From Lampropedia cohaerens (lineage in GTDB: Bacteria > Pseudomonadota > Gammaproteobacteria > Burkholderiales > Burkholderiaceae_C), in the NCBI RefSeq assembly GCF_001005215.1, contig NZ_LBNQ01000021.1, positions 1-52,183 of the forward strand: a stretch of 52,183 nucleotides of DNA, in the 5' to 3' direction. Of the stretch, positions 19,746-40,407 are shown one piece after another; the stretch's first letter is position 1; each line of letters starts with the position of its first letter. The notes beneath the pieces were generated by a model, which was not told where the DNA came from, made no database searches, and saw only the letters and a program-made list of their open reading frames with translations. The translations under genes and the position numbers were made by a program.

Positions 19746-20297
19746 ATGAAACGACGTACAACCCTTCGCCTGGCAACGTGCTGCATCGCTGCAACCTTGG
19801 CCCTGCAGACAGGCGGCGTACTGGCCGCAGCCAACGCTCCCGCTGCCATCAGCTGGGACGAGCTGGTGCCCGCCGACTGGGACCCCAGCGCGGAATTCAC
19901 CGACCTGTTCGAAGCTGGCGCCGACGCGTGGGAGGACACCGATCCGCGCGCGCAGCAGCTCTACGACCGCATGCGCCAGGTCTGGGATGCCGCACCTACC
20001 GTGCCCGACATGAACGGCAAGACCGTGCGCCTGCCCGGCTATGTGGTGGCGCTGGAAGAAGGCCGCGACGGGCTGACCGAGCTGCTGCTGGTGCCCAACT
20101 TCGGCGCCTGCATCCATACGCCCCCGCCGCCTGCCAACCAGATCATCCACATCAAGCTGGATGCCCCCGTCAAGGGCATCCATTCGCTCGACGCCGTCTG
20201 GGCCAGCGGCGAGATGGTTGTCACCCGCAATGATTCGGAAATGGGCGTGAGCGGCTACAGTCTCAAGTCAGCGCAGATCGAGCCCTACGAGCCCTGA
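19746..20297 (+). CDS. DUF3299 exported protein of the zinc cluster
   Basis: A 183-residue protein with a signal peptide (CCIAATLALQTGGVLAAA). It has the DUF3299 core: WDELVPADW near the mature N-terminus, NGKTVRLPGYVVALE, then the Cys-containing LLVPNFGACIHTPPPPANQIIH and the SGYSL ending. The domain recurs beside DUF2796 and ABC genes in Zrg-type loci; its biochemical role is not known to me. It is 36 bp downstream of the permease gene. Its 3' end overlaps the end of the convergent xdhC gene by 30 bp. Confidence 0.85.
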   Translation: MKRRTTLRLATCCIAATLALQTGGVLAAANAPAAISWDELVPADWDPSAEFTDLFEAGADAWEDTDPRAQQLYDRMRQVWDAAPTVPDMNGKTVRLPGYVVALEEGRDGLTELLLVPNFGACIHTPPPPANQIIHIKLDAPVKGIHSLDAVWASGEMVVTRNDSEMGVSGYSLKSAQIEPYEP

Positions 20298-21641
20298 CGG
20301 CGCAGCGTCCAGCGTTGCTCCTGACGCTGGTGTCTTCGCGAGCGCTCGTGGCCGCATGGCCTTGGCCAGGAAGATATGGTGCACGCCAGCGGCGTTCGCG
20401 TAATACTCGGTCACGGTATGGCCGGTCTGGGCCGCGAACGCATGAAAATCCTGCGCCGCGCGATCGTCAGTGGCGAGTACCAGTAGTCGCTCGCCCGCAC
20501 GTAGGTCGTTGAGGGCGCGCTTGGCACGCAGGATGGGAACCGGACAGGCTGTGCCTCGCGCATCGATCACCGTATAGGTGCCGTCGATCGCACTTTCTCT
20601 CGCTGGTTGCGATGGGGCCTGTGCGGCCAAGACCGCCGGCAACTGGACCTGCTGCGGCCGTTCTGGTTGAGGCGGGCGGTCGAGCCGACTGCGCACGGCA
20701 AGCACTTCCGCAACGATGGCCACGGCGATCTCCGCTGGCGTCTTGCTGCCGATTGGCAGACCGATCGGGCTGTGCAAGTGTTCCAGCATGCGGGGGGCCA
20801 CCCCCAACTGCTCAATCATGCGCTGGCGCCGACGCGCTGCATTGCGCCTGGAACCGATGGCTCCCACGTAGAAGGCATCACTGCGCAGTGCCTCCAGCAG
20901 CGCCAGGTCATCCAGTTTCGGATCGTGCGCCAACGCGACCACCGCCGTGCGCCCATCCGGTCGGAACTGCAGCACCGCATCGTCGGGCATGGCAGTGGTG
21001 CAGGCCACCCCGGTAGCCGCCATCGTGTGCAACCTGCCCGGACGGGGATCGCAGGCGGTGATGTGGAACCCATTGATCTGCGCCATTGCGGCAACGTAGG
21101 CGGCAATGTCTCCCGCCCCGATCAGCAGCATGCGCCAGGCCGGCCCCAGCGGCATGCGCAGCTGCTCGCCATCAAAATGCAGCGCCCCGGGCCGCGGCAC
21201 CTGCCGCACCTGCACATCCGCGCCGGACAGCGGCACCAATCGCTCGATCAGGTGCCCTTGCTGCAGATGCCCGACAACCTGGGCGAGCAGGCGTGGCTCC
21301 GGATCCGGTTCGAGCAGCAATTGCAACGTACCGCCGCAGGGCAGGCCGATGTGGTGGGCCTGCGCGGCATCCAAGCCATAGGTCAGCAGGCGCGGCGCGG
21401 GCAGCTGACCCCACGCACAGCTTCCGTTTGTAAACAGCTGTGCGCGCAGCAAGTCCTCCTCCACGCACCCCCCGGAGACCGACCCTACCACCACACCGTC
21501 TTCGTCAAAGGCCAGCAATGCACCGGGCGGCCTCGGTGAGGATCCCCAGGTATGCACCACCGTCACCAGCGCGGCGTGCCTGCCGGCACTGCGCCATTGC
21601 AGCAGCTGGCGAAAAACGGTCAGTTCACTGGTTTCTGCCAT
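20268..21641 (-). CDS. xdhC: XdhC-TusA fusion, Moco-sulfuration chaperone
   Basis: A 457-residue two-part protein. Residues 1 to about 340 are XdhC: GSSPRPPG, the Cys loop GSVSGGCVEEDL, a Rossmann-like IGAGDIAAYVAAMA, VALAHDPKLDDLAL, GAIGSRRNAARRR and the terminal block PIGLPIGSKTPAEIAVAIVAEVLAVR. A linker leads into a TusA/SirA-like domain (about 352-430) with the sulfur-carrying Cys366 in ARGTACPVPILRAKRAL. XdhC proteins bind molybdenum cofactor, protect its terminal sulfido ligand and load it into hydroxylases; TusA proteins carry persulfide sulfur. The fusion could place sulfur delivery and insertion in one chain. It is 15 bp downstream of the cytochrome gene of the nicotinate dehydrogenase, its probable client. 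Confidence 0.88.
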   Translation of the reverse strand: MAETSELTVFRQLLQWRSAGRHAALVTVVHTWGSSPRPPGALLAFDEDGVVVGSVSGGCVEEDLLRAQLFTNGSCAWGQLPAPRLLTYGLDAAQAHHIGLPCGGTLQLLLEPDPEPRLLAQVVGHLQQGHLIERLVPLSGADVQVRQVPRPGALHFDGEQLRMPLGPAWRMLLIGAGDIAAYVAAMAQINGFHITACDPRPGRLHTMAATGVACTTAMPDDAVLQFRPDGRTAVVALAHDPKLDDLALLEALRSDAFYVGAIGSRRNAARRRQRMIEQLGVAPRMLEHLHSPIGLPIGSKTPAEIAVAIVAEVLAVRSRLDRPPQPERPQQVQLPAVLAAQAPSQPARESAIDGTYTVIDARGTACPVPILRAKRALNDLRAGERLLVLATDDRAAQDFHAFAAQTGHTVTEYYANAAGVHHIFLAKAMRPRALAKTPASGATLDAAPSGLVGLDLR

Positions 21642-21656: not shown

Positions 21657-24656
21657 TCATGGGGCCGCGCCCAAGGCATTGCGCGTGGGCGCCGCACCAT
21701 GGCTGTCAGGCTGCTGGCGGATACGACTGATGGACTGCAATGCCGCATCGCTCCATGGCGGCTGGTCAGCGGCATATTCGGCCCGCAGATAGCGCACCAG
21801 ATGCTCGACCTGTTGCTCGCTCAGGTGTTCCTTGAAACCGGGCATGTAGCCCAGCGCTGGATCAGCGGGATTCTGGATACCGTGCAGGATCACCTGAATC
21901 AGGTTGTCGGGGGTGCCCGCGTGGATGTTGGTGTTGGTCTGCATCAACGGCCTGGCTCCGAAAAGCGTTGGCCCGCCATCTGCCGCATGACAGGCCGCAC
22001 AGGCGTTCTGGAACACCCGCTCCCCCTCGACATACCACGCCAGCTCGCGCAATGCCACACGCTCCTGCACCTGGACAGGCGCACTGGCGACCGCCTCCTG
22101 CGGCACGCCGGGCGCTGCCACGTTCGGCACGGCAGCGTTGCTGCCCGGCAGATCCATCAGGTAGGTCACGATGGCGCTGACATCGCTCTCGGCCAGTTCG
22201 GCAAGCCCGTGGATGACGGGCGCCATCGGACCTGCGGCCACCCCGTGGCGCGCCGAGTAGCCCGTGCGCAGGTACTGGTAGAGCTCCTCGGCAGTCCATG
22301 GCACCGGCGCCTCGGCCAGGCGATTGAGCGCCGGCGCGTCCCAGCCTTCTGCCTCGCCGCCAGCCAGGTAATGGGCGAACCCTGACTTCTCCGCCCCCAG
22401 GGCGTTGCGCGGCGAGTGGCAGGCGGCGCAGTGGCCCGCACCTTCCACCAAATAGGCGCCGCGATTCCAAGCCAGGCTCTTGTCCGGCACGGGCTGATAA
22501 ACCTTGTCGTCATGGAACAACCAGTTCCAGCCCGCCAGGGTAAAGCGCAGGTTGAAAGGAAACGGCAGCCGGGTCTGCGGCGGCTGGTAGCGCACCGGCT
22601 CCTGCGACATCAGGTAGCCGTACAGCGCCTGGATGTCGGCATCGGTCATCTTGGCAAAGGCGGTGTACGGAAAGGCCGGGTACAGCTGCCGGCCATCCTG
22701 GTGCACGCCCTGGCGCATGGCACGCTCGAAAGCCGTGTAGGACCAGCGGCCAATGCCGGTTTCCTTGTCGGGAGTGATGTTGGTGCTGTAGATCACGCCA
22801 AACGGCGTCTCCAGCGCCAATCCGCCCGCATTGGACGGACCGCCGGGAGCCGTATGGCAGACGATGCAGTCGCCCGCGGCGGCCACCAGCCGCCCCCGCT
22901 CGATGGCCTCGGCAGAAAACACGGAGAGGTCAACCGCGTCGACCGGTGCGATGGGCGGTTTCGCCGGCCACAGCACGGCGGCGGCGCTGGCCACGGCGGC
23001 GCAGCTTCCCGCCAGCCAGGCAAGGCCGCGCTTGCGCACCGACGTTTTGGCCGCTGGCGCTCTTTCTGCGAGGCCCAGCGCATCGCGCAGTTCCCGCGGA
23101 TCAAACGGCGCAGTGCGCAGCCGCACGCCACAGGCGTCGTAGATGGCGTTGCCAATGGCTGCCGCAGCTGGCCAGGCCAGTACAGGGCTGGTGGCCAGCG
23201 GTGCCGCTGGCGCGTCCCCATGCGCCGGCACTCCCGCATCAGACATGGCTTCCAGCGCACGCGGCGCTGCATCTGACACGGCGGGCAGCGGGCCAGCGGC
23301 AGGCCAGTCGTCGAACTGCCTGGGTGGCGGCACCATCGCCTGGGCCAGGGCCAGATGCTGCGCCTCGTCCGTGGCAATCGCAGGGACAGGCTGCGCCAGC
23401 TGTCCTGCGTCATGTCCAACCACCACCCGCGCCACATCCACCTGGCCGGAGACCGGATCGACGTGCACATCCACCACCCACGCTGCCCATTCCTCGCGCC
23501 CGCCCGGGTGCTGCAGCCCCGCCGCGGCAAAGCCCCGGCCATGCAGCAATCCATCTGCAAGCGGCGACATCACGGGCGACAACGCGGTGTCGTCCTGATG
23601 CGGTTGCAGCCAGCCGCTGCGCCGCGCCGTCTGCTCCATCAGCACACGGCCCGGCCCATCGGGTGTCAGGGCCAGACGCCAGGTCAGGGGATCCTGACCC
23701 TGGGCGCACGCCTGTGCATGCGCACGGCTTTCCTGCGCGAAGACCAGCGCCGCATTGAGCACATCTGCGCTCGCATGGCTCAATGGCGCGCCCCCGCCCC
23801 GGTACTGAGGGCCTCCATAAAGCAGCTGCACCGCCGTGTGCGCAACGGCGAACGCGCGCTCTGGCTCGGCGCACAGGCGCGCCAGGCTCGGCCTGACTGC
23901 CCAGACCGTGCCGGCCTGCCAGCCGCTCCCCCAACCCTGACCGGGCGGCGGACCATCTTCTGCCAGTGCCGTCGCCGCTGCGGCGGCGTCTACCGGGGCC
24001 GGCGATTCGTCGGCATGCGCGAGCACCAGCGGTGCGCCGCGGCCCGATGGCGCAATGGGCATGCACACCGGCCGATGGACGGCGGCAGAGAGCAAGGCGG
24101 CATCGGCCACCGTATCGACAAGCGCCAAGCCATCTGGTGCGACCTGCGGGCTGACGCCCCCTGGCAGGCACTGCACACGGATGCGCGCGTGCGGCACGTG
24201 CAGCAATGCCGCGAGTTCGTCGATCACCATCGAAGTGGCGCCTGCCCCCTGCGGCAGCCAGACCACGACATCCGCTGCGGTACACCACACCACCACCTCG
24301 CCAGCGCCCTGTGCGCGCTCGGGGGATGACCAACAATACGACGCCTCGCCCGGCGCAAGCGCTGCCGTGCGCTGCGCGCCGGACATCGGCTGCCATTGCA
24401 GCGTCAGTGCCTCGGCGGCCTGCCGCGCATGCACGGCAGACACTGCCACCACCCCGACAAAGTGCCGACGCTGCACGGTCGCCACTACGCCCGCGCCACC
24501 AGCCAGCGTCTCAGTGCGCACCGCACGCAGCGTTGCGCCAAGGTACCGATGGCCGTCCCACGCCATGGCAGGCGGACGCACCACCGCACCATGCAGAACG
24601 TCCTCCGGCAGTCCCGTGACCGCCTGCGACGCGGGCGGCAACAATTGCGACGGCAT
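21657..24656 (-). CDS. Triheme cytochrome c with a Moco-domain remnant (NicB-type)
   Basis: A 999-residue protein. Residues 1 to about 530 follow the layout of the XDH Moco domain: an a/b hammerhead start (VLHGAVVRPP, RHFVGVVAVSAVHARQAAEAL) and an end resembling NicB (AAAIGNAIYDACGVRLRTAPFDPREL). The GxGE loop with the catalytic Glu is missing, so this half is probably not catalytic. A membrane helix (about 548-565) precedes three cytochrome c domains with CIVCH at 597, CAACH at 743 and CAACH at 886. In P. putida NicB one chain holds an active Moco domain and the cytochromes. Here the cytochrome part probably passes electrons from the dehydrogenase to the respiratory chain. The start overlaps the nicA stop by one base (TAATG). 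Confidence 0.85.
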   Translation of the reverse strand: MPSQLLPPASQAVTGLPEDVLHGAVVRPPAMAWDGHRYLGATLRAVRTETLAGGAGVVATVQRRHFVGVVAVSAVHARQAAEALTLQWQPMSGAQRTAALAPGEASYCWSSPERAQGAGEVVVWCTAADVVVWLPQGAGATSMVIDELAALLHVPHARIRVQCLPGGVSPQVAPDGLALVDTVADAALLSAAVHRPVCMPIAPSGRGAPLVLAHADESPAPVDAAAAATALAEDGPPPGQGWGSGWQAGTVWAVRPSLARLCAEPERAFAVAHTAVQLLYGGPQYRGGGAPLSHASADVLNAALVFAQESRAHAQACAQGQDPLTWRLALTPDGPGRVLMEQTARRSGWLQPHQDDTALSPVMSPLADGLLHGRGFAAAGLQHPGGREEWAAWVVDVHVDPVSGQVDVARVVVGHDAGQLAQPVPAIATDEAQHLALAQAMVPPPRQFDDWPAAGPLPAVSDAAPRALEAMSDAGVPAHGDAPAAPLATSPVLAWPAAAAIGNAIYDACGVRLRTAPFDPRELRDALGLAERAPAAKTSVRKRGLAWLAGSCAAVASAAAVLWPAKPPIAPVDAVDLSVFSAEAIERGRLVAAAGDCIVCHTAPGGPSNAGGLALETPFGVIYSTNITPDKETGIGRWSYTAFERAMRQGVHQDGRQLYPAFPYTAFAKMTDADIQALYGYLMSQEPVRYQPPQTRLPFPFNLRFTLAGWNWLFHDDKVYQPVPDKSLAWNRGAYLVEGAGHCAACHSPRNALGAEKSGFAHYLAGGEAEGWDAPALNRLAEAPVPWTAEELYQYLRTGYSARHGVAAGPMAPVIHGLAELAESDVSAIVTYLMDLPGSNAAVPNVAAPGVPQEAVASAPVQVQERVALRELAWYVEGERVFQNACAACHAADGGPTLFGARPLMQTNTNIHAGTPDNLIQVILHGIQNPADPALGYMPGFKEHLSEQQVEHLVRYLRAEYAADQPPWSDAALQSISRIRQQPDSHGAAPTRNALGAAP

Positions 24657-25189
24657 TACTGGGCCTCCCCGGCTGCCGCCGCGCGCCGCTGCCGATGCAG
24701 AGCCACAGCCCGCCGCGCCGCCTGCAGGATCTCAACATGGGTACCGCAGCGGCACAGGTTATGCCGCAACTCGCGGCGAATCTCCGCCTCCGTGGGATCG
24801 GGGTTGCGCCGCAGCAGCGCCTCGACCGTCATGATCATACCGTTGAGGCAGTAGCCGCACTGGGCCGCCTCGCAATCGATGAAGGCCTGTTGGGTCGGCC
24901 CGGGCGCCTGCGCAGTGCCCAGGCCCTCCAGCGTGGTGATGCGGCGGCCCTGCGCTGCAGCGGCCGGCAACACGCAGGACCTGGCAGCAACGCCATCGAC
25001 CAGTACGGTGCAGGCACCACATTCGCCAAGGCCACACCCGTACTTCGGGCCGTTGAGACAGCAGTCGTTGCGCAGCGCCTGCAGCAGCGTCTGCCCGGGC
25101 GACTGCGGCAGGCGCCGGGACTGCCCATTGACCTGCAGCACCACGACGCCGGCATGCGCGTGCGAATTGTTCATTGCTTTCTTGTCCAT
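24656..25189 (-). CDS. nicA: Nicotinate dehydrogenase, 2Fe-2S subunit
   Basis: A 177-residue small subunit of a molybdenum hydroxylase. The plant-type [2Fe-2S] cluster motif CGLGECGACTVLVDG lies near residue 55; the second cluster uses QCGYC and CRCG in the C-terminal four-helix domain (AAQCGYCLNGMIMTVEALL, HNLCRCGTHVEIL). It passes electrons from Moco to the cytochrome subunit during hydroxylation of nicotinate to 6-hydroxynicotinate. An alternative start (MNNS, 25174) has AAGAAAG upstream and cannot be ruled out. It is the first gene of a leftward operon with the cytochrome and XdhC-TusA genes, divergent from the catalytic subunit. Confidence 0.9.
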   Translation of the reverse strand: MDKKAMNNSHAHAGVVVLQVNGQSRRLPQSPGQTLLQALRNDCCLNGPKYGCGLGECGACTVLVDGVAARSCVLPAAAAQGRRITTLEGLGTAQAPGPTQQAFIDCEAAQCGYCLNGMIMTVEALLRRNPDPTEAEIRRELRHNLCRCGTHVEILQAARRAVALHRQRRAAAAGEAQ

Positions 25190-25565
25190 TCAACCAGCGG
25201 CACCCGCGTGTTTTCTTGCGCGTGGCAACGCGGCGCGACGCAATGCCACTGCGCAAGCACAAACCGTTCCCGTTTTTCAATGCATACACTCCAAATCCCG
25301 CAGATGCGCCAGCATCCTCGGCACGCTTAATGCATACACCAGCGTGCACCGGAGAGCGTTCCCTGCTACCGTTGCCAGACCTTGTATTCCTCTGCAGCTA
25401 TTCCGAACCCATCGGATGTTCCGCGCGGATGCCTGGCGCAGCGCAGCAGACACGCCTGCCATCGAATCCACATGCATACACGCAACTTTCACGCCCAGCG
25501 CCGCACATTTCGCACCGCTTTTGTGCCGCCCTTCCCCATTCGTGTGCGCACGGCCACGCATCGCC
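25190..25565. promoter_or_regulatory. Divergent nic promoter region with three ATGCATACAC boxes
   Basis: A 376-bp region between nicA and the Moco-subunit gene. It contains three copies of ATGCATACAC in the same orientation, at 25280-25289, 25330-25339 and 25472-25481; the first two share AATGCATACAC. The second copy is flanked by GCACGC and GCGTGC, a 6-bp inverted repeat. The region drives both arms of the dehydrogenase locus and is the most likely target of the adjacent MarR-type regulator NicR. No gene is supported inside it. Confidence 0.6.
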
Positions 25566-27860
25566 ATGACGAACATCAACCCATCCGAGACTCCAGGCGC
25601 GCTGCGTGATGCCCTTCTGCACCGTGACGGTGCACTGCTGGTTGTGCGCAACCCCAGTGCGGTCGCGCAACCAGCGCCGGGTCAGCCGGGCTCCGCGTCG
25701 AATTACGTCCCGCATGAACCGGAGGTGTTCATTGCCGTGCTCGACGACGGCCGGGTTTATGCCTTCAATGGCCACGTGGATCTGGGCACCGGCATCCGCA
25801 CCGCCCTGGCACAGGTTGTTGCAGAGGAGCTGGAAACAGACTTCGATAGGCTGACCATGGTGCTGGGCCACACCGACAGCACGCCCAACCAAGGCCCTAC
25901 CATTGCCAGCGCGAGCATCCAGATTTCCGCCATGCCGCTGCGGCGCGCTGCCGCCCAGGCGCGCGAGCGGCTGATCGATCTCGCCGCCGCACGTTGGGGC
26001 TGTCCGCGCGATGCCCTCGTCGCGCAACAGGATTGCGTGCACGATCTGCAGGGCCACAGGCGCGTGCCTTATGCCGATCTGCTACACGGCCGCCGTGAGC
26101 GGCTGTATCTGGCACAGGACGTCAAACTCAAGCCCGCCAGCGCCTATCGCCTGGTCGGCCACCGGGCCGCCCGCGTGGACATTCCCGCCAAGGCCACCGG
26201 AGCACTGACCTTTGTGCATGACGTGCGTCTGCCAGGCATGCGCCACGGCCGCGTCATACGCCCGCCCTACCATGGACGCGACAGCGGCGCCTTCGTCGGC
26301 CACAGTCTGCTGGAAGTGGACGCCAGCTCGGTGGCCGACCTGCCCGGCAACATCCAGGTAGTCGTGCACGGTGACTTCATCGGCGTCGTCGCTGATCGCG
26401 AAGAGCAGGCCGAAGCCGCCATGCGCGCCCTGCGGGTGCGATGGCAACCGCCACCAGCCGCGCCGGATCTCAGCGACCTCAAGCAGGCCCTGCGCAGCAA
26501 TCCTTCCACGCTGCGGCCACTGCGCAGCGATGGCAACGTCGCAGCCGCCATGGCGCAGGCCGCCACGGTGCTGCGCAACGACTATGTCTGGCCCTACCAG
26601 ATGCATGGCTCCATCGGCCCATCCTGCGCCGTGGCCAGCTGGCAGGGCGATCGACTCACCGTCTGGGCCGGCACGCAGAATCCGCACATGCTGCGCACCG
26701 ACCTTGACCGTCTGCTGCACATCGGCGAGCAGCACATCGAGATCGTGCGCTTGGAAGCTTCCGGCTGCTACGGGCGCAACTGCGCCGACGATGTCTGCGC
26801 GGACGCTGCGCTGCTCGCGCGCGCCGCTGGCGCCCCCGTGCGCGTGCAGCTCACGCGGGCGCAGGAGCACCTCTGGGACCCCAAGGGCACCGCCCAGCTG
26901 ATGGAGGTCTGCGCTGCCATCGACCACCAGGGCAATCTGCTGGCCTACGACATGGCCATCCGCTACCCGTCGAACGACGCGCCACTGCTGGCACTGCTGC
27001 TGACGCGCCAGCTGCCAGCCGAGCCCCGGACCCTGGAGATGGGCGACCGCACCGCCATTCCACCCTATCGCTACCCGCACCTGCAGGCGGTATGCCACGA
27101 TGGGCCGCCGATCGTGCGCGCGTCCTGGCTGCGCGGCGTGTCCGCCCTGCCGAACTCCTTTGCGCACGACTGCATGCTCGACGAGCTCTGCGAGGCCGCC
27201 GGTGCGGACCGCCTGGAATTCCGGCTGCGCCACCTCGACGACACCCGCGCCCGCGAGTTGCTGCAGGCCACCGCGCAACGCGCGCGCTGGTGCGCCCATG
27301 CCCACGGCAGCCGCGGCGCGCCCGAGCGCGATGGCATGCTGCGTGGCCGCGGCATTGCCTACGCGCGCTACGTCCACAGCAAGTTCCCGGGCTTTGGCGC
27401 CGCCTGGGGCGCCTGGGTGGTGGACCTGTGTGTCAACCCCGCAACGGGCCGCATCCGCGTGGAGCGAGTCACCTACGGGCAAGACACCGGCATGATCGTC
27501 AACCCGGACGGCGTGCGCCACCAGATCCACGGCAACATCATCCAGTCCCTCAGCCGCGTGCTGATGGAGCGCGTGGCCTTCGATGCGGCAGGCGCTGCCA
27601 GCAGGGAATGGGGCACCTACCCGATCATCGGGTTTGCCGACCTGCCGGACATCGACGTAGTGCTCATGGACCGTCAGGACGAGCCCCCCATGGGCTCGGG
27701 CGAGTCGGCCTCCGTGCCCTCTGCTGCCGCCGTGGCCAACGCCTTGTTCGATGCGACCGGACTGCGATTTCGCGCGCCGCCGTTCACGCCCGATGTCGTC
27801 CTGAAGGCGTTACACAGCGCATGCGCGCCGGCGCAGGCGACCGCAGCTGCCTCGCTCTAG
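25566..27860 (+). CDS. nicB: Nicotinate dehydrogenase, catalytic Moco subunit
   Basis: A 764-residue XDH-family molybdopterin-binding subunit. NicB/isoquinoline-oxidoreductase features are EVFIAVLDDGRVYAFNGHVDLGTGIRTALAQVVAEEL, GPTIASASIQ, EASGCYGRNCADDV (in place of the usual GGGFG loop) and MGSGESASVPSAAAVANALFDATG, where Glu713 should be the catalytic base. It should hydroxylate C6 of nicotinate. Unlike P. putida NicB it has no cytochrome extension; that part is in the divergent gene at 21657-24656. ATG 25566 is chosen as the start of family homology. nicR follows 72 bp later. The catalytic assignment is firm; the exact substrate is inferred from the complete downstream pathway. Confidence 0.85.
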   Translation: MTNINPSETPGALRDALLHRDGALLVVRNPSAVAQPAPGQPGSASNYVPHEPEVFIAVLDDGRVYAFNGHVDLGTGIRTALAQVVAEELETDFDRLTMVLGHTDSTPNQGPTIASASIQISAMPLRRAAAQARERLIDLAAARWGCPRDALVAQQDCVHDLQGHRRVPYADLLHGRRERLYLAQDVKLKPASAYRLVGHRAARVDIPAKATGALTFVHDVRLPGMRHGRVIRPPYHGRDSGAFVGHSLLEVDASSVADLPGNIQVVVHGDFIGVVADREEQAEAAMRALRVRWQPPPAAPDLSDLKQALRSNPSTLRPLRSDGNVAAAMAQAATVLRNDYVWPYQMHGSIGPSCAVASWQGDRLTVWAGTQNPHMLRTDLDRLLHIGEQHIEIVRLEASGCYGRNCADDVCADAALLARAAGAPVRVQLTRAQEHLWDPKGTAQLMEVCAAIDHQGNLLAYDMAIRYPSNDAPLLALLLTRQLPAEPRTLEMGDRTAIPPYRYPHLQAVCHDGPPIVRASWLRGVSALPNSFAHDCMLDELCEAAGADRLEFRLRHLDDTRARELLQATAQRARWCAHAHGSRGAPERDGMLRGRGIAYARYVHSKFPGFGAAWGAWVVDLCVNPATGRIRVERVTYGQDTGMIVNPDGVRHQIHGNIIQSLSRVLMERVAFDAAGAASREWGTYPIIGFADLPDIDVVLMDRQDEPPMGSGESASVPSAAAVANALFDATGLRFRAPPFTPDVVLKALHSACAPAQATAAASL

Positions 27861-27932
27861 AATCATTCCGTTACCGCGCGCACCATTTCCGGGGTGCGCC
27901 GGTCCTGTCGGTCTTGCCCTCACGCGCCCTCT

Positions 27933-28385
27933 ATGACCAGCCACGCAACAGCACCCTATGACTTCAGCACCCAGGTCGGGCACCTGCTGCGGCGCGCCTA
28001 CCAGCGCCACACCATGGTGTTTCAACAATACATCCCGGACTCGCAGCTGACTGCCGCCCAGTTCGTGGTGCTGTGCGCCCTGAAGGACCACGGCGGCAGT
28101 TCCATTGCCGACATCGTCAAGGCGACCGTGATCGACCAGGCCACCGTACGCGGCGTCATCGAGCGCCTGCGCGCCCGGGACCTGGTGGCCGTGGAGCATG
28201 ACCCGACCGACCGGCGCAAGGTCGTGGTGCAGCTGACAGCCGAAGGCGCACAAATGGTGCAGCAGATGGTGCCGTTTGGGCACACCATCACCGAAAAGAC
28301 GTTTGGCGACCTCAATCCCGCAGAGCGCGTGGCGCTGCTGTACCTGCTGACCAAGATGTGCGCCAGCAACGGCGAACACGCCTAG
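27933..28385 (+). CDS. nicR: MarR-family regulator, NicR-like
   Basis: A 150-residue winged-helix regulator. The MarR core shows QLTAAQFVVLCALKDHGGSSIADIVKATVIDQATVRGVIERLRARDLVAVEHDPTDRRKVVVQLT, that is the recognition helix followed by the DxRxxxV wing. NicR of P. putida represses nic genes and is released by 6-hydroxynicotinate. Its place right after the dehydrogenase subunit gene and before the transporter and nicC operon supports that role. The ATG at 27933 gives the usual family length; a GTG at 27894 would add a non-conserved leader. A small hairpin (GCGCACC...GGTGCGC, 27878-27899) lies just upstream. The repeated ATGCATACAC motif nearby is the candidate operator. Confidence 0.85.
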   Translation: MTSHATAPYDFSTQVGHLLRRAYQRHTMVFQQYIPDSQLTAAQFVVLCALKDHGGSSIADIVKATVIDQATVRGVIERLRARDLVAVEHDPTDRRKVVVQLTAEGAQMVQQMVPFGHTITEKTFGDLNPAERVALLYLLTKMCASNGEHA

Positions 28386-28638: not shown

Positions 28639-28822
28639 CTTAAATGCACTTCACTGGAGGTGGCACCAATCCTGTTCAGGCTGTTGTGGCAAGCCGCAGC
28701 GCAGTGGCGTCCTGCCCATGCCCGGCATGGGGACGCAGCAGCCCGTCGGCTCCCGCCAGTTACGGGACGCGCACCTCTCTTCCCATCCCGGCAAGGCGAC
28801 TTGCCATCCTCCCGACGCAATC

Positions 28823-30490
28823 ATGCCAACGCGCACTCACCCATTGCCCCCTGTCGCGGGCAATCCGTTGTTGTATTTACTCGCAGCCGCTGCTCTACCC
28901 GCCTGTGGCGGGGGGAGGGGACGCATCTTCGGACGATCGCTCCGATCCTCGAGCCTTTGCGAATCGTTGCGAGGCGCTGCCGGGCGCCACGGTTGCAGGC
29001 GGCGCAGTGACGCAGGCGACCTTCGAGCGCGCCAGCGCTGGCGCGATCACCGCTACCTCCTGGCCCGACCATTGCCTGGTGCGAGGCGCCATGAACCAGC
29101 GCACCGGCATCGACGGCAAGCCCTATGCACTACAGTTCGAGTTGCGCCTGCCGATGGCATGGAACCAACGTTTTTATTACCAGGGAGGCTCAGGCGTCGA
29201 CGGGCAACTCTTTACCGCCCTGGGCAACTACAGCGGCGGCGGCAATACCCGCAACGCCTTGCTGGACGGCTTCGCCGTGGTCACCACCGACTCGGGACAC
29301 ATTGCCGAGGCAGGCATGGAAAACGGCAGTTACCTGTTCGGCGCAGACCCGCAGGCGCGCGATGAGTATGGCGACATGCAACTGCCGCAGGTGACTGCGG
29401 CAGCCAAGACGCTTATCACCGGTTTCTATGGCGAGAGCCCGCAAAAGTCCTACTTCGTCGGCTGCTCCAACGGCGGCAGGCAAGCCATGATTGCGGCGCA
29501 ACGCTATCCAGAGCTCTTTGACGGCATCGTGGCCGCGGCACCAGGCTTTCGCCTCGCACAGGCCTCAATCGAGGCAGGCATCCACCAGGTCCAGCGTGCC
29601 GCCCAGGTGGCACCCAGGGGTGCAGATGGCAAGCCGGATCTGAGCCAAGCGATGTCGCCTGCGGAAACGCAGATCGTCAAAGATCGCATCCTGCAGGCTT
29701 GCGACGCGGCAGACGGTGCGGTTGATGGCATCGTGAGCAAAATGGGCGCCTGCCAGCCCGACCCCTTGGAGTGGGTCTGCAAGCCAGGAGACAACGGCAA
29801 CTGCCTGAGCGCCGAGAAAGCGCAATTCGTCAAGGACATGTTCGCAGGTGGCCAGCTGGCTTCCGGCGAGCTGATTTATGCCCGCTGGCCGTATGACCCG
29901 GAAATGGTCGGGATGTTCGGTGTGCCGTTTCGCAGCATCTTTGCGGGCGAAGCCTCACACATCTACACCACGCCCCCACGCTGGGCATGGATCTGATGGA
30001 CTACTCGCTCACGGCCGACGTCGACACCGAATATGCCAAGCTGTTTGCCACGCAGACACCCTTCACGCGCAGCGGCGTGGAGTTCACCAATGGCGACTCG
30101 GAGAATCTGGACGCCTTCCGACAGCGTGGCGGCAAGCTGATCATCTTCCATGGCGCGGCCGACCTGGCCTTCTCCATTCACGACGTTGCGGCGTACTACG
30201 ACCGGCTGCGCGCTCGCTACGGAGATGCACAGACTGCCGATACCGCACGCGCCTTTTTCGTGCCAGGCATGGCGCACTGCGCGGGCGGCAATGCGACCGA
30301 CCAGTTCGATGCCGTCGGCGCTGTCATCGGCTGGGTGGAGGCAGGCCGCGCTCCGGACGTGTTGATCGCGACGGCGGGCGCGGGCACGGACTGGCCAGGC
30401 CGCACTCGCCCGCTCTGCCCCTACCCGCAGGAAGCTGTCTACAAAGGCTCGGGAAGCCTGGAAGACGCAGAAAACTTTGCGTGTCGATGA
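28823..30490 (+). pseudogene. Tannase/feruloyl-esterase-like lipoprotein with two frameshifts
   Basis: The frame starts at ATG 28823 with a lipoprotein signal peptide ending LPAC (Cys in a GGG-rich site). It shifts at the G6 run 28910-28915, where one G too many breaks it, and continues through most of the hydrolase. It shifts again at the C5 run 29973-29977, where one C too few breaks it. The last part runs 29987-30490. With both indels repaired the product is one tannase-family hydrolase of about 555 residues: nucleophile GCSNGGRQA, Asp in GAADLAFSIHD, His in GMAHCAGG. These enzymes cleave ester bonds of aromatic acids outside the cytoplasm. Whether the indels are real or sequencing errors cannot be told from sequence alone. 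Confidence 0.75.
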
Positions 30491-30757
30491 AGATATTTTA
30501 AGTGTATACATCATAACATTGGCATAAGAGAAGGCGTTTTATCACCCCCTAGGATAGGCACCAACAAGATGCACAAACCCCTGAAACAGGTAAAAAATAG
30601 CTGAAATGACAGTCTATTAGCATTCTTTTGGTGCATCCCCTGCCTGCTCTCGCGTAGGCCGACCTGGAACGGTTATTGCTTCCTTATTTCGAGCGCATGC
30701 ATTCTATGTCGCTTGAATCGCGCTACCGCGCAGCCTCAACCGCTTCCAGGAGAGACC
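30491..30757. promoter_or_regulatory. Promoter region of the transporter-nicC operon
   Basis: A 267-bp AT-richer gap upstream of the substrate-binding protein gene. At 30502-30511 it has GTGTATACAT, on the minus strand ATGTATACAC, a one-base variant of the ATGCATACAC box followed by TTAAA as at 28629. AGGAGAGACC just before 30758 is a good ribosome-binding site. No gene is supported here. Confidence 0.5.
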
Positions 30758-31987
30758 ATGAACCTACCCCTTCTTCCCCAGTGCCTGCAGACGGTGCGCT
30801 GGGCCACCGCCATCGGTGCCGCCACCCTTGCCATGGCCGCATCGGCACAGGACACCATCAAGATCGGTGAGATCAACAGCTACAAGGCGCAGCCTGTTTT
30901 CCTGGAAGCCTACAAGCAGGGCATGGCCCTGGCGCTGGAGGAAGCGAATGCGGCGGGTGGCGTCAACGGCAAGCAGTTCGAGCTGATCATCCGCGATGAC
31001 AACGCCAACCCGGGCGAAGCAGTGCGTCAGGCCGAGGAACTGCTCTCGCGCGAAAAAGTCGACATCCTGGCAGGCACTTTCCTCTCGCACGTAGGGCTGG
31101 CCATGGCTGATTACGCGCGGCAAAAGCAGGTGTTCTTCCTGGCCAGTGAGGCGCTGACCGATAAGATCACCTGGGACAGTGGCAGCCCCTACACATTCCG
31201 CCTTCGCACCTCGACCTACATGCTGGCAGCGTCGCTGGTGCCGGAGGCCGTCAAGCTGAACAAGAAGCGCTGGGCCATCATCTACCCGAACTATGAATAC
31301 GGGCAGTCCGCCGCGGAGACCTTCAAGACGCTTCTGAAGCAAGCGCAGCCGGATGTCGAGTTCGTGATCGAGCAGGCTCCGCCGCTGGGCAAGGTGGATG
31401 CCGGCAGCGTGGTACAGGCCGTGGCCGATGCCAAGCCGGATGCCGTGTTCAACGCGCTGTTCGGGCCGGATCTGGCCAAGCTGGTGCGGGAAAGCACTAC
31501 GCGCGGTGCCTTTGCGGGCATTCCGGTGGTCAGTGTGCTGACGGGCGAGCCCGAATACCTGGAACCGTTGCGCGACGAGGCGCCAGTGGGGTGGATCGTC
31601 ACCGGCTACCCCTGGTACGCGATCGACACGCCTGAGCACAAGGCGTTCGTGCAGGCCTATCAAGCCAAGTTCGGAGATGGCAACCTGCGGTTGGGTTCGG
31701 TGGTGGGTTACTCCACCATCAAGTCCATCGTCGAAGGTGTCAAGCGTGCCGGCGGCAAGACCGACACGGAATCGATGATCAAGGCCTTTTCCGGCCTGAA
31801 GGTGCCAACGCCCGACGGTGTCATCGAGTACCGCGCGATCGACCACCAATCGACCATGGGCACCTATGTGGGTCGCATCGCGCTCAAGGACGGTGAAGGC
31901 GTCATGGAGGACTTCTACTACGTCCCCGGCGAGCAGCTGCTGCCACCTGACGAGGAAGTCGCCAAGCTGCGCCCCGCCACGCCTTAA
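30758..31987 (+). CDS. ABC transporter substrate-binding protein (LivK type)
   Basis: A 409-residue periplasmic type I binding protein. The signal peptide ends near LAMAASAQ. The mature part has IKIGEINSYKAQPVFLEAYKQGMALALEEANAAGG, RDDNANPGEAVRQAEELL and VDILAGTFLSHVGLAMADYA, the branched-chain-amino-acid/amide receptor pattern. Strong AGGAG before ATG 30758 fixes the start. It heads a four-gene Liv-type ABC system leading directly into the nicotinate pathway genes, so nicotinate or a related N-heterocycle or amide is the likely ligand. Known nic loci use an MFS permease (NicT) instead. Family is firm, ligand inferred. Confidence 0.85.
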   Translation: MNLPLLPQCLQTVRWATAIGAATLAMAASAQDTIKIGEINSYKAQPVFLEAYKQGMALALEEANAAGGVNGKQFELIIRDDNANPGEAVRQAEELLSREKVDILAGTFLSHVGLAMADYARQKQVFFLASEALTDKITWDSGSPYTFRLRTSTYMLAASLVPEAVKLNKKRWAIIYPNYEYGQSAAETFKTLLKQAQPDVEFVIEQAPPLGKVDAGSVVQAVADAKPDAVFNALFGPDLAKLVRESTTRGAFAGIPVVSVLTGEPEYLEPLRDEAPVGWIVTGYPWYAIDTPEHKAFVQAYQAKFGDGNLRLGSVVGYSTIKSIVEGVKRAGGKTDTESMIKAFSGLKVPTPDGVIEYRAIDHQSTMGTYVGRIALKDGEGVMEDFYYVPGEQLLPPDEEVAKLRPATP

Positions 31988-32094
31988 GCCTGAACGGCGG
32001 CGAGAACCTGCCCCGTCCTGCACTGGACGTGGGCAGCAGCCGCCCTCTTTTTGACCATTCGACACGCCAAGCGCATCTAGGAATAGAGATTCCC

Positions 32095-34032: not shown

Positions 34033-34820
34033 CTGCACCACTTTTGCAGGTAACAGGGCTGTGCAAGTCGTTCGGCGGCGTCCGGGCGGTGGACGGCATC
34101 CACTTCGACCTCTACCCGGGCGAGCTGCTCGCCCTCATCGGCCCCAACGGGGCGGGCAAGTCCACCACCTTCAACATGGTCGGAGGCCAGCTTGTCGCTA
34201 CGGCCGGCTCGGTCAAGCTCGCAGGGCACGAGCTGGTCGGCATGAAGCCACGTGACATCTGGCGCCTCGGCGTCGGGCGCACCTTCCAGATTGCCGCAAC
34301 ATTCAGCTCCCTGACGGTGGTCGAGAACGTGCAGATGGCGCTGCTGTCGCACCAGTCGCGCATCTACACCTTCTGGCGCAGCGCGGCGTCGCAGTACCGC
34401 AGTGAAGCGCTGGAGCTGCTCGATCAGGTCGGCATGCGCGCACAGGCCAACCGGCCCTGCAGCGAGCTGGCCTATGGCGACGTCAAGCGCGTCGAGCTGG
34501 CAATGGGGCTGGCCAACGACCCCAAGCTGCTGCTGATGGACGAGCCGACCGCCGGCATGGCTCCCAAGGAGCGCAACGCGCTGATGGCATTGACCAAGCA
34601 GCTGGTGGTGAACCGCAACATGGCCGTGCTGTTCACCGAGCACAGCATGGACGTGGTGTTTGCCTATGCCGACCGGATGATCGTGCTCGCACGGGGCCGG
34701 CTGATTGCGGAAGGCTCGGCAGAGCAGATCCGCAACGACCCCAAGGTGCAGGAAGTGTATTTCGGCAGCGGCAAGACTTTCGAGAAACCATCCCAGGCGC
34801 CGCAGGAGGAGACGGCATGA
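34029..34820 (+). CDS. Liv-type ABC ATPase (LivG-like)
   Basis: A 263-residue nucleotide-binding subunit. Walker A is GPNGAGKST, the Q-loop region GVGRTFQIAATFSSLTVVENV, Walker B LLLMDEPTAGMAP and the switch His in FTEHSMDVVF. The LSGGQ-equivalent is a weak ELAYGDVKRVELAMGLA, as in other LivG proteins. It overlaps both neighbours by four bases (ATGA at each end), indicating tight translational coupling with the permease and the second ATPase. Confidence 0.88.
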   Translation: MTAPLLQVTGLCKSFGGVRAVDGIHFDLYPGELLALIGPNGAGKSTTFNMVGGQLVATAGSVKLAGHELVGMKPRDIWRLGVGRTFQIAATFSSLTVVENVQMALLSHQSRIYTFWRSAASQYRSEALELLDQVGMRAQANRPCSELAYGDVKRVELAMGLANDPKLLLMDEPTAGMAPKERNALMALTKQLVVNRNMAVLFTEHSMDVVFAYADRMIVLARGRLIAEGSAEQIRNDPKVQEVYFGSGKTFEKPSQAPQEETA

Positions 34821-35686: not shown

Positions 35687-37024
<1,338 letters not shown>

Positions 37025-37116: not shown

Positions 37117-37872
37117 ATGACCACCAAACCCTACCGAATAGGCCAGATTGTGCCGAGCTCCAACATCACGATGGAGACGGAGATACCCGCAATGTTGCGC
37201 GCACGCGAGCTGATTGCGCCCGAGCGCTTTACCTTTCACTCCTCGCGCATGCGCATGAAGCATGTGACCAAGGAAGAACTCTCCAGGATGGATGCCGACA
37301 GCGACCGCTGTGCGCTCGAGCTCTCGGATGCCAAGGTCGACGTCATGGGCTACGCCTGCCTGGTGGCCATCATGTCCATGGGCCTGGGCTACCACTGTGC
37401 TTCGAAGGACCGCCTGACGCAGGTGGTGCGCGGCAACGACAGCGATGCGACGGTGATCAACTCCGCCGGTGCGCTGGTCGATGCGCTGCACGCCATGAAG
37501 GCCAGGAAGATCGCCATCGTCGCGCCCTACATGAAGCCGCTGGCGCAGATGGTCTTTGACTACATCGCCCACGAGGGCTTCGACGTGGTCGACAGCCGCG
37601 CGCTAGAGATTCAGGACAACCTGGCCGTGGCCGCCCATGACCCGATGAACCTGCCCGACATCGTGCAGACCATGGATTACCAGGATGCCGACGTCATTGT
37701 GCTCTCGGCCTGCGTGCAGATGCCCTCGCTGCCTGCCATCCAGACCGTGGAAGCCTTGACCGGCAAGCCGGTGGTCACCGCCGCAGTAGCCACCACCTGG
37801 GCCATGCTGCGTGCGCTGCAGCTGTCCACCCGCGTGCCCGGCGGCGGCGCGCTGCTCTCTGGCGCTTATTGA
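37117..37872 (+). CDS. nicE: Maleate cis-trans isomerase
   Basis: A 251-residue Asp/Glu-racemase-superfamily enzyme that converts maleate to fumarate, the last step of the pathway. The two catalytic cysteines are in GYACLVA (Cys81) and LSACVQMPS (Cys199), close to Cys82 and Cys200 of characterised maleate isomerases. The N-terminal IGQIVPSSNITMETEIPAML segment is typical. AGAAGG lies 6 bp before ATG 37117. Gap to nicC is 92 bp and to nicD 25 bp, in one operon. Confidence 0.92.
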   Translation: MTTKPYRIGQIVPSSNITMETEIPAMLRARELIAPERFTFHSSRMRMKHVTKEELSRMDADSDRCALELSDAKVDVMGYACLVAIMSMGLGYHCASKDRLTQVVRGNDSDATVINSAGALVDALHAMKARKIAIVAPYMKPLAQMVFDYIAHEGFDVVDSRALEIQDNLAVAAHDPMNLPDIVQTMDYQDADVIVLSACVQMPSLPAIQTVEALTGKPVVTAAVATTWAMLRALQLSTRVPGGGALLSGAY

Positions 37873-37897
37873 ATCGACAGTCGAAAGGAAATCCCTC

Positions 37898-38671
37898 ATG
37901 CGAGGCTATCACCTGCACGCAAACGGCATTCGCCAGCATTTGATCCACTATCCGGGCAATGGCCCCACGCTGTTGCTGATTCCGGGCATCACCTCTCCAG
38001 CCATTACCTGGGGCTTTGTCGGCGAGCGTCTGGCCGACAACTTTGACGTGCACGTGCTCGATGTGCGCGGGCGCGGCCTGAGCGAGGCGGGCGATCTGGA
38101 CTACACGCTGGATGCCATGGCCGATGACGCGGTGGCGCTGGGCGAGCAACTGGGCCAGCCCATTGTGCTGGGCCATTCCATGGGCGCACGCACGGCCATC
38201 CGTGCTGCGCGCAAGAATGCCGATGCGTTCTCGGGCTTGATCCTGGTCGATCCTCCCATGTCCGGTCCGGGCCGACGCCCCTACCCGGCCAAGTGGGCCT
38301 GGTACAGCGATTCCATCCGCATGGCGCAAAAGGGCTGCAGCGCCGAGGACATGCGCACCTTCTGCCCTTCGTGGAGCGAGGAACAACTGGCGCTGCGCGC
38401 GCAGTGGCTGCATACCTGCCAGTGGGGCGCTATCCGCCAGGCCTGGGATGGCTTTGCCACCGATGACATCCACGCCGATCTGCCGCACATCAAGCTGCCC
38501 GCTCGCCTGGTGATTGCCGGTGGCGCCACCGTGGTGCTGCCTGAAGACCAAGCCGAAGTGCAAAGCCTGATGCCGCAATTGGAAGTGCGCAAGGTCGAGG
38601 GTGCGGGCCACATGATTCCCTGGGATGACCTGGAAGGTTTTCTGGCGGCCGTTTCGGACTTTCGTGTGTAA
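37898..38671 (+). CDS. nicD: N-formylmaleamate deformylase
   Basis: A 257-residue alpha/beta hydrolase that removes formate from N-formylmaleamate to give maleamate. The nucleophile elbow GHSMGA gives Ser94; Asp118 (ILVDPPMSG) and His238 (EGAGHMIPW) complete the triad, each offset by seven from Ser101, Asp125 and His245 as I recall them for P. putida NicD. The oxyanion-hole region LLLIPGITSPAITW is present. ATG 37898 follows AAAGGAA. Lies between nicE and nicX. Confidence 0.92.
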   Translation: MRGYHLHANGIRQHLIHYPGNGPTLLLIPGITSPAITWGFVGERLADNFDVHVLDVRGRGLSEAGDLDYTLDAMADDAVALGEQLGQPIVLGHSMGARTAIRAARKNADAFSGLILVDPPMSGPGRRPYPAKWAWYSDSIRMAQKGCSAEDMRTFCPSWSEEQLALRAQWLHTCQWGAIRQAWDGFATDDIHADLPHIKLPARLVIAGGATVVLPEDQAEVQSLMPQLEVRKVEGAGHMIPWDDLEGFLAAVSDFRV

Positions 38672-38710
38672 GAACCACCTGTTCCAGGTAGCAAAGCAAG
38701 GAGATTGACC

Positions 38711-39742
38711 ATGGACCACGCCAGCTTTACCGAGATTTGCCTGCATCAGCTCAAGATGTCAGGCGTGCGCAAGGATGAGCGCCTGATCGTATTGACCCAA
38801 GGCAATGACCGGCTGGACTATGCCGATGCCTTCATGGCCGCGGGCCAGCGCCTGGGCGCCAACATGTACCACATGCGCTTGCCCGCCCCCCTGCCCTCCG
38901 ATGGCTGGTCAGTGGGCGTCACAGGGCTGGCGGCCATGCCCGATGCGGTCGAGGCGCTCAAGCAGTGCGACATGCTCATCGACTGCATCTTCCTGCTGTT
39001 TTCCAAGGAGCAGTTCGCCATTCAGGCCGCCGGCACGCGCATTCTCACTGCAGTCGAGCCGCCCGCACTGCTGGCGCGCCTGCTGCCCTATCCGGAGCTG
39101 CGCGAGAAGGTGGAGATTGCCGCCAAGATCCTGGAAGAAGCCAAGGTCATGCGCATCACCTCCCCGCACGGCACGGATGTGACCTACCGGCTGAACACCT
39201 ATCCGACCATAGCCGAGTACGCCTGTACCGATACGCCCGGCCGCTGGGATCATTGGCCCTCGGGCTTTGTCTTTACCGGCGGGGACGATGACGGCGTCGA
39301 TGGCACGATCGTGGTGGCGCCCGGCGACATTCTGCTGCCGCAGAACCTGATGGTGCGCGAGCCCATTACCTACACGATCGAGAAGGGCTGGATCACCGAT
39401 ATCCGCGGCGGGCTGGAAGCGCAGATCGTCAAGGCCTACATGGAGAGCTTTGGCGACAAGCGCGGCTATGGCATGAGCCATGTGGGCTGGGGCATGAACC
39501 CGCAGGCCAAGTGGCACAACTTCGTGCCCGGCGAGTTCCCCGGCGGCATGGGCATGGAGCCGCGCAGCTTCTACGGCAATGTGATGTTCTCCACCGGCCC
39601 CAACAATGAGCTGGGCGGGCCCAACGATACGGCCTGCCATCTGGATATTCCGATGCGCGGCTGCTCGCTGTTTCTCGACGATGCGCCGGTGGTGATCGAT
39701 GGCGACATCGTCGTCAAGGATATTCAGATGACACGCGGCTAG
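38711..39742 (+). CDS. nicX: 2,5-Dihydroxypyridine 5,6-dioxygenase
   Basis: A 343-residue Fe(II) ring-cleaving dioxygenase that opens 2,5-dihydroxypyridine to N-formylmaleamate. It is unrelated to classical extradiol enzymes and belongs to an aminopeptidase-like metalloprotein family. His257 (GMSHVGWG), His310 and Asp312 (ACHLDIPM) are each offset by eight from His265, His318 and Asp320, the iron ligands I recall for P. putida NicX. ATG 38711 is preferred over a TTG two codons upstream; GGAG lies about 8 bp before. Ring cleavage by NicX is diagnostic of the nicotinate pathway. Confidence 0.92.
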   Translation: MDHASFTEICLHQLKMSGVRKDERLIVLTQGNDRLDYADAFMAAGQRLGANMYHMRLPAPLPSDGWSVGVTGLAAMPDAVEALKQCDMLIDCIFLLFSKEQFAIQAAGTRILTAVEPPALLARLLPYPELREKVEIAAKILEEAKVMRITSPHGTDVTYRLNTYPTIAEYACTDTPGRWDHWPSGFVFTGGDDDGVDGTIVVAPGDILLPQNLMVREPITYTIEKGWITDIRGGLEAQIVKAYMESFGDKRGYGMSHVGWGMNPQAKWHNFVPGEFPGGMGMEPRSFYGNVMFSTGPNNELGGPNDTACHLDIPMRGCSLFLDDAPVVIDGDIVVKDIQMTRG

Positions 39743-39786
39743 GCCCCTCGTACTGGCTGCGAACCCCTCAAAAGACGAAAGTATCC

Positions 39787-40407
39787 ATGTCTCAGGAACA
39801 GATTTATTCGGCGGCCGGATTCGGCCACCCCGTGCCGCGCGGCACGCGCCCGGCCATCATCGTGGTGGACTTCTCCTACGGCTTTACGGATTTGCAGTAT
39901 CCGACCGCTTCGGATGCCTCGGCCCAGATGGCCGCCACCAGGCGCATTTGCGACAAGCTGCGCAGCCAGGGCTTTCCGGTGGTGTTCTCCACGATTGCCT
40001 ACCACCCTGGTGAGATCGCCCAGCTGGCCTGGCTTCGCAAGGCCAAGGGCATGGCGGATCTGCTCGAAGGCACCCGTCTGGTCGAGATCGATGCGGCCAC
40101 CGGTATCCAGCCGGAGGACGTTGTGATCACCAAGAAAGGCGCTTCCTCCTTCTTTGGCTCCAACCTCGCTGCACTGCTTACCGCCGCGGGCACCGATACC
40201 CTGATCGTCGCTGGCGCCACCACTTCGGGCTGCGTGCGCGCTACTGTCGTCGATGCCGTGCAGGCGGGCTTCAATGTCCTCGTGCCCCGCGATTGCTGCG
40301 CCGATCGCGCCCAGGCGCCCCATGAGGCCAGCCTCTATGACATGCAGCAAAAATATGCCGATGTCACTTCCTCCTCTGACATCCTAGAATGGCTGCAGTC
40401 CTTGTAA
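39787..40407 (+). CDS. nicF: Maleamate amidohydrolase
   Basis: A 206-residue isochorismatase-like cysteine hydrolase that releases ammonia from maleamate to give maleate. The triad is visible: Asp28 (IIVVDFSYGF), Lys117 (ITKKGASSFFG) and Cys149 (ATTSGCVRATVVDA). Length matches characterised NicF. It lies 44 bp after nicX and 39 bp before the flavin-reductase-like gene, in the same operon. Confidence 0.92.
   Translation: MSQEQIYSAAGFGHPVPRGTRPAIIVVDFSYGFTDLQYPTASDASAQMAATRRICDKLRSQGFPVVFSTIAYHPGEIAQLAWLRKAKGMADLLEGTRLVEIDAATGIQPEDVVITKKGASSFFGSNLAALLTAAGTDTLIVAGATTSGCVRATVVDAVQAGFNVLVPRDCCADRAQAPHEASLYDMQQKYADVTSSSDILEWLQSL

Follow-up and report, generated by a model that had tools for sequence, protein, structure and literature searches.

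A degenerate molybdenum-cofactor domain joined to the cytochromes of a likely nicotinate dehydrogenase in Lampropedia cohaerens

The 52,183-nucleotide stretch of Lampropedia cohaerens DNA analysed here (contig NZ_LBNQ01000021.1, referred to as the window) encodes a three-gene molybdenum hydroxylase resembling the NicA-NicB1-NicB2 nicotinate dehydrogenases. It raises the question why the cytochrome subunit, NicB2, begins with a copy of the molybdenum cofactor (Moco) domain that has lost its active site, when an intact copy of this domain, NicB1, is encoded next to it. We give a probability of roughly 60% to the reading that the enzyme is a membrane-associated nicotinate dehydrogenase, in which this relic, left by the duplication of a fused NicB gene, would serve as a cytoplasmic docking platform for NicA-NicB1. 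The features concerned are the following.

25566..27860, plus strand: NicB1-like catalytic Moco subunit, 764 residues, P0002 (MoCoBD_1/MoCoBD_2, PDB match, active-site loops)
24656..25189, minus strand: NicA-like [2Fe-2S] subunit, 177 residues (Fer2 and Fer2_2 domains)
21657..24656, minus strand: NicB2-like cytochrome subunit with the Moco relic, 999 residues, P0001
23070..24602, minus strand: Moco relic, residues 19-529 of P0001, from the hammerhead to the C-terminal helix, active-site loops lost (hhalign, residue table, Foldseek)
22971..23027, minus strand: predicted membrane helix, residues 544-562 of P0001 (hydropathy scan)
21732..22934, minus strand: tri-haem cytochrome c region, CxxCH at residues 597, 743 and 886 of P0001 (8gy3_A, Cytochrom_C)

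The 764-residue protein contains the Pfam domains MoCoBD_1 and MoCoBD_2, the latter in two pieces, one at each end; this permuted order, with the N-terminal half of MoCoBD_2 first, is a trait of its subfamily. Its best match in the PDB is 8gy3_C (E 6.8e-50), its GxGE loop is intact (MGSGESA), and it reads as an intact molybdenum subunit of the xanthine dehydrogenase family. The start was taken as the ATG at 25566, and a longer open reading frame of 993 residues begins upstream. Both [2Fe-2S] domains were found by Pfam in the 177-residue protein, the stop of whose gene overlaps the start of the 999-residue gene by one base; the molybdenum gene is divergent from this pair. Residues 554-976 of the 999-residue protein match the cytochrome subunit 8gy3_A (E 3.5e-93), and Cytochrom_C is recognised (E 9.9e-25) together with three CxxCH motifs. 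A preliminary description of the locus, made from the DNA letters alone, was right about the coordinates and lengths of these genes, and its claim of a separate, divergent catalytic gene with an intact MGSGESA loop is borne out by the MoCoBD domains and by the residue table given below.

The homology of the relic was apparent in a search of the window's own genome with the 764-residue protein, which matched the 999-residue gene at 33% (E 8.7e-16) and 34% (E 5.3e-6) identity. In a comparison by hhalign, run without an unrelated profile as control, nine long relics were aligned to seven catalytic subunits with 99.9% probability (E 7.2e-36), residues 19-529 of the relic corresponding to residues 224-751 of the catalytic subunit. 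A shorter version of the relic, found in some relatives, matched the catalytic profile in a comparison of the same type at 99.8% (E 4e-30). Pfam reported only cytochrome domains and no Moco domain in the 999-residue protein, and NCBIfam no Moco domain except a 31-residue XdhA match below its cut-off; since the genome search and hhalign find the homology, this silence does not mean that the fold is absent. An ordinary cytochrome subunit without a relic is ruled out by hhalign, a chance similarity between relic and catalytic subunit by both searches, and decay of the reading frame by the single open frame that holds relic and cytochromes. The 999-residue protein is thus, as judged from its sequence, a three-haem cytochrome c subunit whose first 530 or so residues are a degenerate copy of the Moco fold. 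The preliminary description had taken this copy to be full-length, and here only its degenerate nature stood: the relic starts at the hammerhead, and nothing in it corresponds to roughly the first 220 residues of the catalytic subunit.

Which residues were lost and which were kept was tabulated for 28 catalytic and 14 relic rows in P0002 numbering. Seven of the relic rows (L091 and L095 among the long relics, and five short ones) were shortened to 330 residues, so that their gaps at the first loops are no evidence of loss. Gln371, Trp521, Arg523 and Glu713 each occur in all 28 catalytic rows. In the relics, Gln371 is found in none of the seven rows reaching that position and Trp521 in none of nine, Arg523 falls inside a deletion in all 14, and Glu713 is retained in three of 14. 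Asn646, His655, Gly656 and Asn657 of the NPDGVRHQIHGN loop occur in no relic row (0/14). The C-terminal helix (AAIANAIxDATGVRxR..PF) is nearly unaltered in the relics, with Asn725, Ala726, Gly732, Arg734 and Pro739 kept and a Phe at 740 in all 14 rows. The first half of the 999-residue protein has the homologous fold of a xanthine dehydrogenase family Moco domain according to hhalign; the residue table shows it to lack the Moco-binding and catalytic loops, and the cytochrome chain carries no active Moco domain such as a fused NicB has. The loss of the catalytic loop, as the preliminary description had it, is confirmed, and a real and conserved pseudo-Moco domain had been seen in it from raw sequence; overall, its observation was confirmed in part and its interpretation supported in part. 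The relic closest to NicB1 among those compared lies outside the window's order (L104, 3445-6477, genome G775): it is 31.7% identical over residues 222-753 (E 6e-57) and keeps a GRHCGDD-like loop.

Structure prediction, proposed in the preliminary description as a check, helped in part. With relic rows only, AlphaFold2 gave an unusable model (mean predicted local distance difference test score, pLDDT, 41.3; predicted template modelling score, pTM, 0.29). When seven short relics and two catalytic rows were added, mean pLDDT rose to 66.7 and pTM to 0.60, and Foldseek found 8gy3_C as the best match of this model (E 9.3e-13); the 50 best matches listed were all chains of the molybdenum hydroxylase family. 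We regard this as support and not as proof, because the catalytic rows may steer the model. Query TM-scores were only 0.22-0.27, and therefore local folds are recognised and the overall arrangement is unreliable.

The relic is not a peculiarity of the window. A scan of GTDB genomes yielded 15 loci, namely Corticibacter populi and seven Achromobacter with a long relic and seven Caballeronia or Paraburkholderia whose short relic has about 250 homologous residues. Together with two Burkholderiaceae plasmid records, seven genomes from order-wide and class-wide scans and the window, 25 loci were compared, Achromobacter, Paraburkholderia and Burkholderia cenocepacia being among the relatives. All 25 carry a relic (15 long, 10 short, with L102, counted as short, being intermediate); since P0001 or its relic half served as the query for each, the set is selected for relics. 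A divergent catalytic gene lies on the same contig in 24 of the 25; the exception, L020, is a 7.7-kb contig from a genome without a close catalytic match. The order-wide scan, in which three candidates were scored per genome, gave matches in 92 of 399 genomes, and relics may be undercounted in it because only fetched loci were read. Class-wide, matches were found in five of 369 genomes: the window's, G108, G775 with the further relic L104, and G421 and G532, the last two being left out of the relic set.

Selection on the relic was estimated as the ratio of nonsynonymous to synonymous substitution rates (dN/dS) by the Nei-Gojobori method in 10 gene pairs from Achromobacter, Paraburkholderia or Caballeronia, with genomes shared between pairs. 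The relic has ratios of 0.177-0.299, the cytochrome part 0.065-0.150 and the catalytic subunit 0.092-0.191, the relic values being rough in the five pairs in which its dS exceeds 0.9. Purifying selection acts on the relic in every pair. These data bear on the possibility that it is a decaying leftover whose sole role is that of a leader before the membrane helix, as might be thought from a dN/dS that is the highest of the three parts in every pair, from linkers that differ widely in length and from the very existence of a shorter version. We consider this improbable, given that its dN/dS is still only 0.18-0.30, that it remains in frame with the cytochromes at 25 of 25 loci and that the same C-terminal blocks recur without change in the long and short relics and in the catalytic rows. 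It is somewhat easier to imagine, though still unlikely, that the relic is the dead half of a pseudo-dimer with NicB1, stabilising or regulating it, and that the membrane tether is incidental. The almost unaltered C-terminal helix in all 14 relic rows is what would be expected of a kept contact surface, but the short relics do without the hammerhead and most of MoCoBD_1, which leaves little of a dimer partner.

The placement of the relic relative to the membrane is suggested by the segment that follows it. All 25 relic proteins have a 19-residue hydrophobic segment between the relic and the first haem (mean Kyte-Doolittle hydropathy 1.13-1.98). The 15 residues that precede it carry a net charge of +1 to +7, and the flank after it one of -2 to +2; in the window's protein, KTSVRKR precedes the helix and the 15 residues before it amount to +4. 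Covalent attachment of c-type haem takes place in the periplasm. The charge pattern and this periplasmic attachment would together place the relic on the cytoplasmic side of the NicB2 helix. The helix scan leaves out L099 and L100, which were misplaced by the haem pattern.

Export of the catalytic subunit by the twin-arginine translocation (Tat) system was assessed by a motif search on N-termini. No motif was found in 22 of 24 standalone catalytic subunits, including the 764-residue protein of the window, and the match in the remaining two (L093, L095) precedes the likely start. The nine assessable fused proteins gave no match either; six of them have a pair of arginines near the start with no hydrophobic stretch after it. 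Two split enzymes without a relic, L090 and L105, do carry the motif (TRRQLLK and TRRNLLK), as do all five distinct outgroup proteins whose N-terminus can be read; eight further outgroup rows are truncated (two of them represent the genes of L103 and L109). The window's enzyme has neither the twin-arginine signal on the catalytic subunit nor the relic-less cytochrome of the Tat-exported split type.

A search with the catalytic subunit, unselected for relics, links the two traits. It covered 399 genomes of the order, with two candidates scored per genome and matches of 44% or less left unclassed, and gave 15 hits that are 52% or more identical to NicB1. Seven are standalone subunits without a Tat signal, and a relic cytochrome adjoins every one of them; six are fused and two are split and Tat-bearing, and a relic stands beside none of these eight. 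The numbers are small and come from one order. One genome, G148, holds both types, a relic-bearing enzyme without a Tat signal (L094) and a relic-less, Tat-exported one (L105).

How could such a pair of proteins have arisen? Whatever the trees say, relic and fused proteins share a colinear junction, consisting of the C-terminal helix, a basic stretch, the membrane helix, an IAP-type motif and the first haem, and a relic of such shape needs a fused ancestor. Duplication of a fused NicB in place would be the simplest account. In the catalytic tree, for which the program warned of a long outgroup branch, the standalone subunits form one clade (support 95/91) with the fused row L100 nearest and the other fused rows outside. 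A tree built from 219 columns of the Moco C-terminal part unites the relics (98/99); their long branch falls within the nicotinate-type and split enzymes, and support for the standalone subunits is 46/93 in this tree. The cytochrome tree groups relic and fused cytochromes together, apart from the split ones (100/100). The proposal of the preliminary description, duplication followed by complementary loss, gains from the colinear junction and from the standalone and relic clades; it is weakened by the approximately unbiased (AU) test, which does not reject a monophyletic fused NicB (p 0.127), and by the lower standing of the standalone subunits in the shorter tree. Concerning origin only, and compatible with docking, the second Moco copy might instead have been acquired from another genome, the resident fused NicB decaying thereafter; the point at which the relic clade joins is left unfixed by the trees, and the Moco C-terminal tree becomes 0.04 log units worse if relics and standalone catalytic subunits are forced together (AU p 0.41). 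We hold such an acquisition to be rather unlikely, because the standalone catalytic gene and the relic gene stand divergently at 24 of 25 loci and each of the two groups is one clade, both of which a single founding event would give.

The substrate is suggested by the genes around the enzyme, which are listed here together with a maturation gene on its other side.

27894..28385, plus strand: MarR regulator, NicR/BpsR-like (61% to a BpsR-annotated protein of a Paraburkholderia nic locus)
35690..37021, plus strand: nicC-like flavin adenine dinucleotide monooxygenase, homology from 35960 (60% to an Azospirillum nic-locus monooxygenase)
37123..37869, plus strand, extent of match: nicE-like maleate isomerase (70% to an annotated maleate isomerase)
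37889..38668, plus strand: nicD-like alpha/beta hydrolase (54%)
38705..39739, plus strand: nicX-like 2,5-dihydroxypyridine dioxygenase (44% to an annotated 2,5-dihydroxypyridine 5,6-dioxygenase)
39787..40404, plus strand: nicF-like amidohydrolase (42%)
20268..21641, minus strand: XdhC-type Moco maturation factor fused to a TusA sulfurtransferase domain (XdhC_CoxI, XdhC_C, TusA)

By tblastn, nicC, nicE, nicD, nicX and nicF homologues were located at 35960-40389 and the MarR gene at 27918-28379, with 42-71% identity to the best reference, and all lie within 13 kb. In Achromobacter, Caballeronia and Paraburkholderia the genes between the catalytic and relic genes appear, by sight, nic-pathway-like; in the annotated Paraburkholderia locus they include the MarR regulator BpsR and a maleate isomerase. 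Fused relatives in Azospirillum and Pantoea adjoin an annotated 2,5-dihydroxypyridine dioxygenase. Because of the nic cluster in the window and the nic-type gene sets around the relatives, nicotinate is the likely substrate, which supports the preliminary naming of the enzyme as a nicotinate dehydrogenase. Oxidation of some other substrate is conceivable, the assignment being made from gene context, but with homologues of nicC, nicE, nicD, nicX, nicF and BpsR within 13 kb, and also in the relatives' loci, we regard it as very improbable.

Other genes of the region deserve mention. The nic cluster encloses genes for an ATP-binding cassette (ABC) transporter of the branched-chain amino acid type (30713-35611, plus strand), two ATPases being recognised by domain scan and a binding protein and permease by sight; the transporter might possibly serve nicotinate uptake, by analogy with the putative nicotinate ABC transporter noted for Bordetella in a passage of PMC10269826. 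Between the MarR and transporter genes (28644-30490, plus strand), two adjacent frames of 450 and 167 residues appear, by sight, to make up a single tannase/feruloyl-esterase-like protein that a frame change has interrupted, and the 450-residue frame has only a weak NCBIfam depolymerase match. The XdhC-TusA fusion suggests direct delivery of sulfur for Moco sulfuration; TusA is in the same frame as XdhC at two of the 10 loci with an XdhC match, some of which are partial (the window and L016, 9824-11146). On a plasmid of Pseudomonas sp. BYT-1 (L078, 7784-10992), an unannotated NicB fragment, running from about catalytic residue 380 and with cytochromes, adjoins an annotated IS6100 transposase, as if an insertion had cut the gene.

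In the mechanism we propose, NicB1 would hydroxylate nicotinate at its Moco site, NicA would take the electrons from NicB1, and the three c-type haems of NicB2 would pass them on. After duplication of the fused NicB, the NicB1 copy would have kept catalysis and lost helix and cytochromes, and the NicB2 copy would have kept helix and cytochromes and lost catalysis. The relic would then be a docking platform tying the cytoplasmic NicA-NicB1 core, devoid of a Tat signal, to the membrane and the periplasmic cytochrome. For relatives exported by Tat, the encounter with the cytochrome would take place in the periplasm; a nicotinate-type enzyme that had lost its export signal would need a cytoplasmic hold on its cytochrome, which may be provided by the covalent link in fused NicB and by the relic in the window's enzyme. 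6-Hydroxynicotinate is used inside the cell by NicC, and the loss of the Tat signal in the nicotinate-type enzyme is in keeping with this. A relic acting as such a hold would explain its presence beside seven of seven Tat-less standalone subunits and none of the eight enzymes of other types. The docking role is consistent with the predicted topology, the Tat pattern and the purifying selection.

Several points weigh against this reading. Electron transfer from a cytoplasmic iron-sulfur donor to periplasmic haems is unexplained, and the topology is a prediction from hydropathy and a twin-arginine motif search. The Burkholderia-type relics are without the hammerhead and most of MoCoBD_1, and therefore only the last 250 or so residues can be essential. 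The relic evolves with a higher dN/dS than cytochrome and catalytic gene in each of the 10 pairs, and its structure models are weak. Finally, the catalytic tree leaves fused NicB monophyly standing, and the best cytochrome tree does not unite the relic cytochromes, although their monophyly is not rejected either (p 0.41). More tentative, and in our estimate a little short of even odds, is the general picture in which a dead Moco domain becomes a cytoplasmic docking platform, a cytoplasmic molybdenum hydroxylase hands electrons to c-type haems across the membrane, and the fused protein gave way to a long relic and this to a short one whittled down to an adaptor.

A three-gene enzyme of this kind is already known. 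Passages of PMC10269826 describe a two-component nicotinate hydroxylase, NicAB, in Pseudomonas putida KT2440 and a tripartite one, NicA, NicB1 and NicB2, in Burkholderia gladioli NGJ1 and Bordetella, and a passage of PMC4572682 reports nicB1 and nicB2 in Delftia acidovorans Cs1-4. By description, the window's enzyme is like the tripartite ones in its three parts and its nic locus: it has a [2Fe-2S] subunit, a separate Moco subunit, a tri-haem cytochrome and a nic cluster. In KT2440 NicB, catalysis and cytochromes share one chain; compared by description, the window has them on two chains, with the relic in addition. The fused Moco-cytochrome relatives examined are 55-60% identical to NicB1. 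The passages on NicA, NicB1 and NicB2 in these two sources mention no relic, and the primary Bordetella papers may describe one. In Comamonas testosteroni JA1, NdhS, NdhL and NdhM are given in a passage of PMC10331938 as three subunits of 21, 82 and 46 kD, the last being called a flavoprotein. The JA1 enzyme resembles the window's in having three subunits. Its 46-kD subunit, which we take to be the cytochrome subunit, would leave no room for a relic, at least from the sizes in that passage, and the enzyme may belong to the relic-less, Tat-exported split type of L090 and L105. The best solved match of the catalytic and cytochrome parts is the membrane aldehyde dehydrogenase of Gluconobacter oxydans (8gy3), whose cytochrome chain of 444 residues matches only from residue 554 of the 999-residue protein and has no relic. 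A literature search over titles and abstract openings gave, among the matches listed, no description of a nicotinate dehydrogenase with a degenerate Moco domain. Within the literature searched, what is new is the relic, the graded way in which it has been reduced and its association with the loss of Tat export.

For the NicB kind as a whole, the finding poses a question of topology, in that the molybdenum site has no recognisable export signal and the haems must be periplasmic; therefore, electrons would have to find a way across the membrane. It also offers a traceable case of an enzyme domain turning into the pseudo-domain partner of its own active copy, with the intermediates still living.

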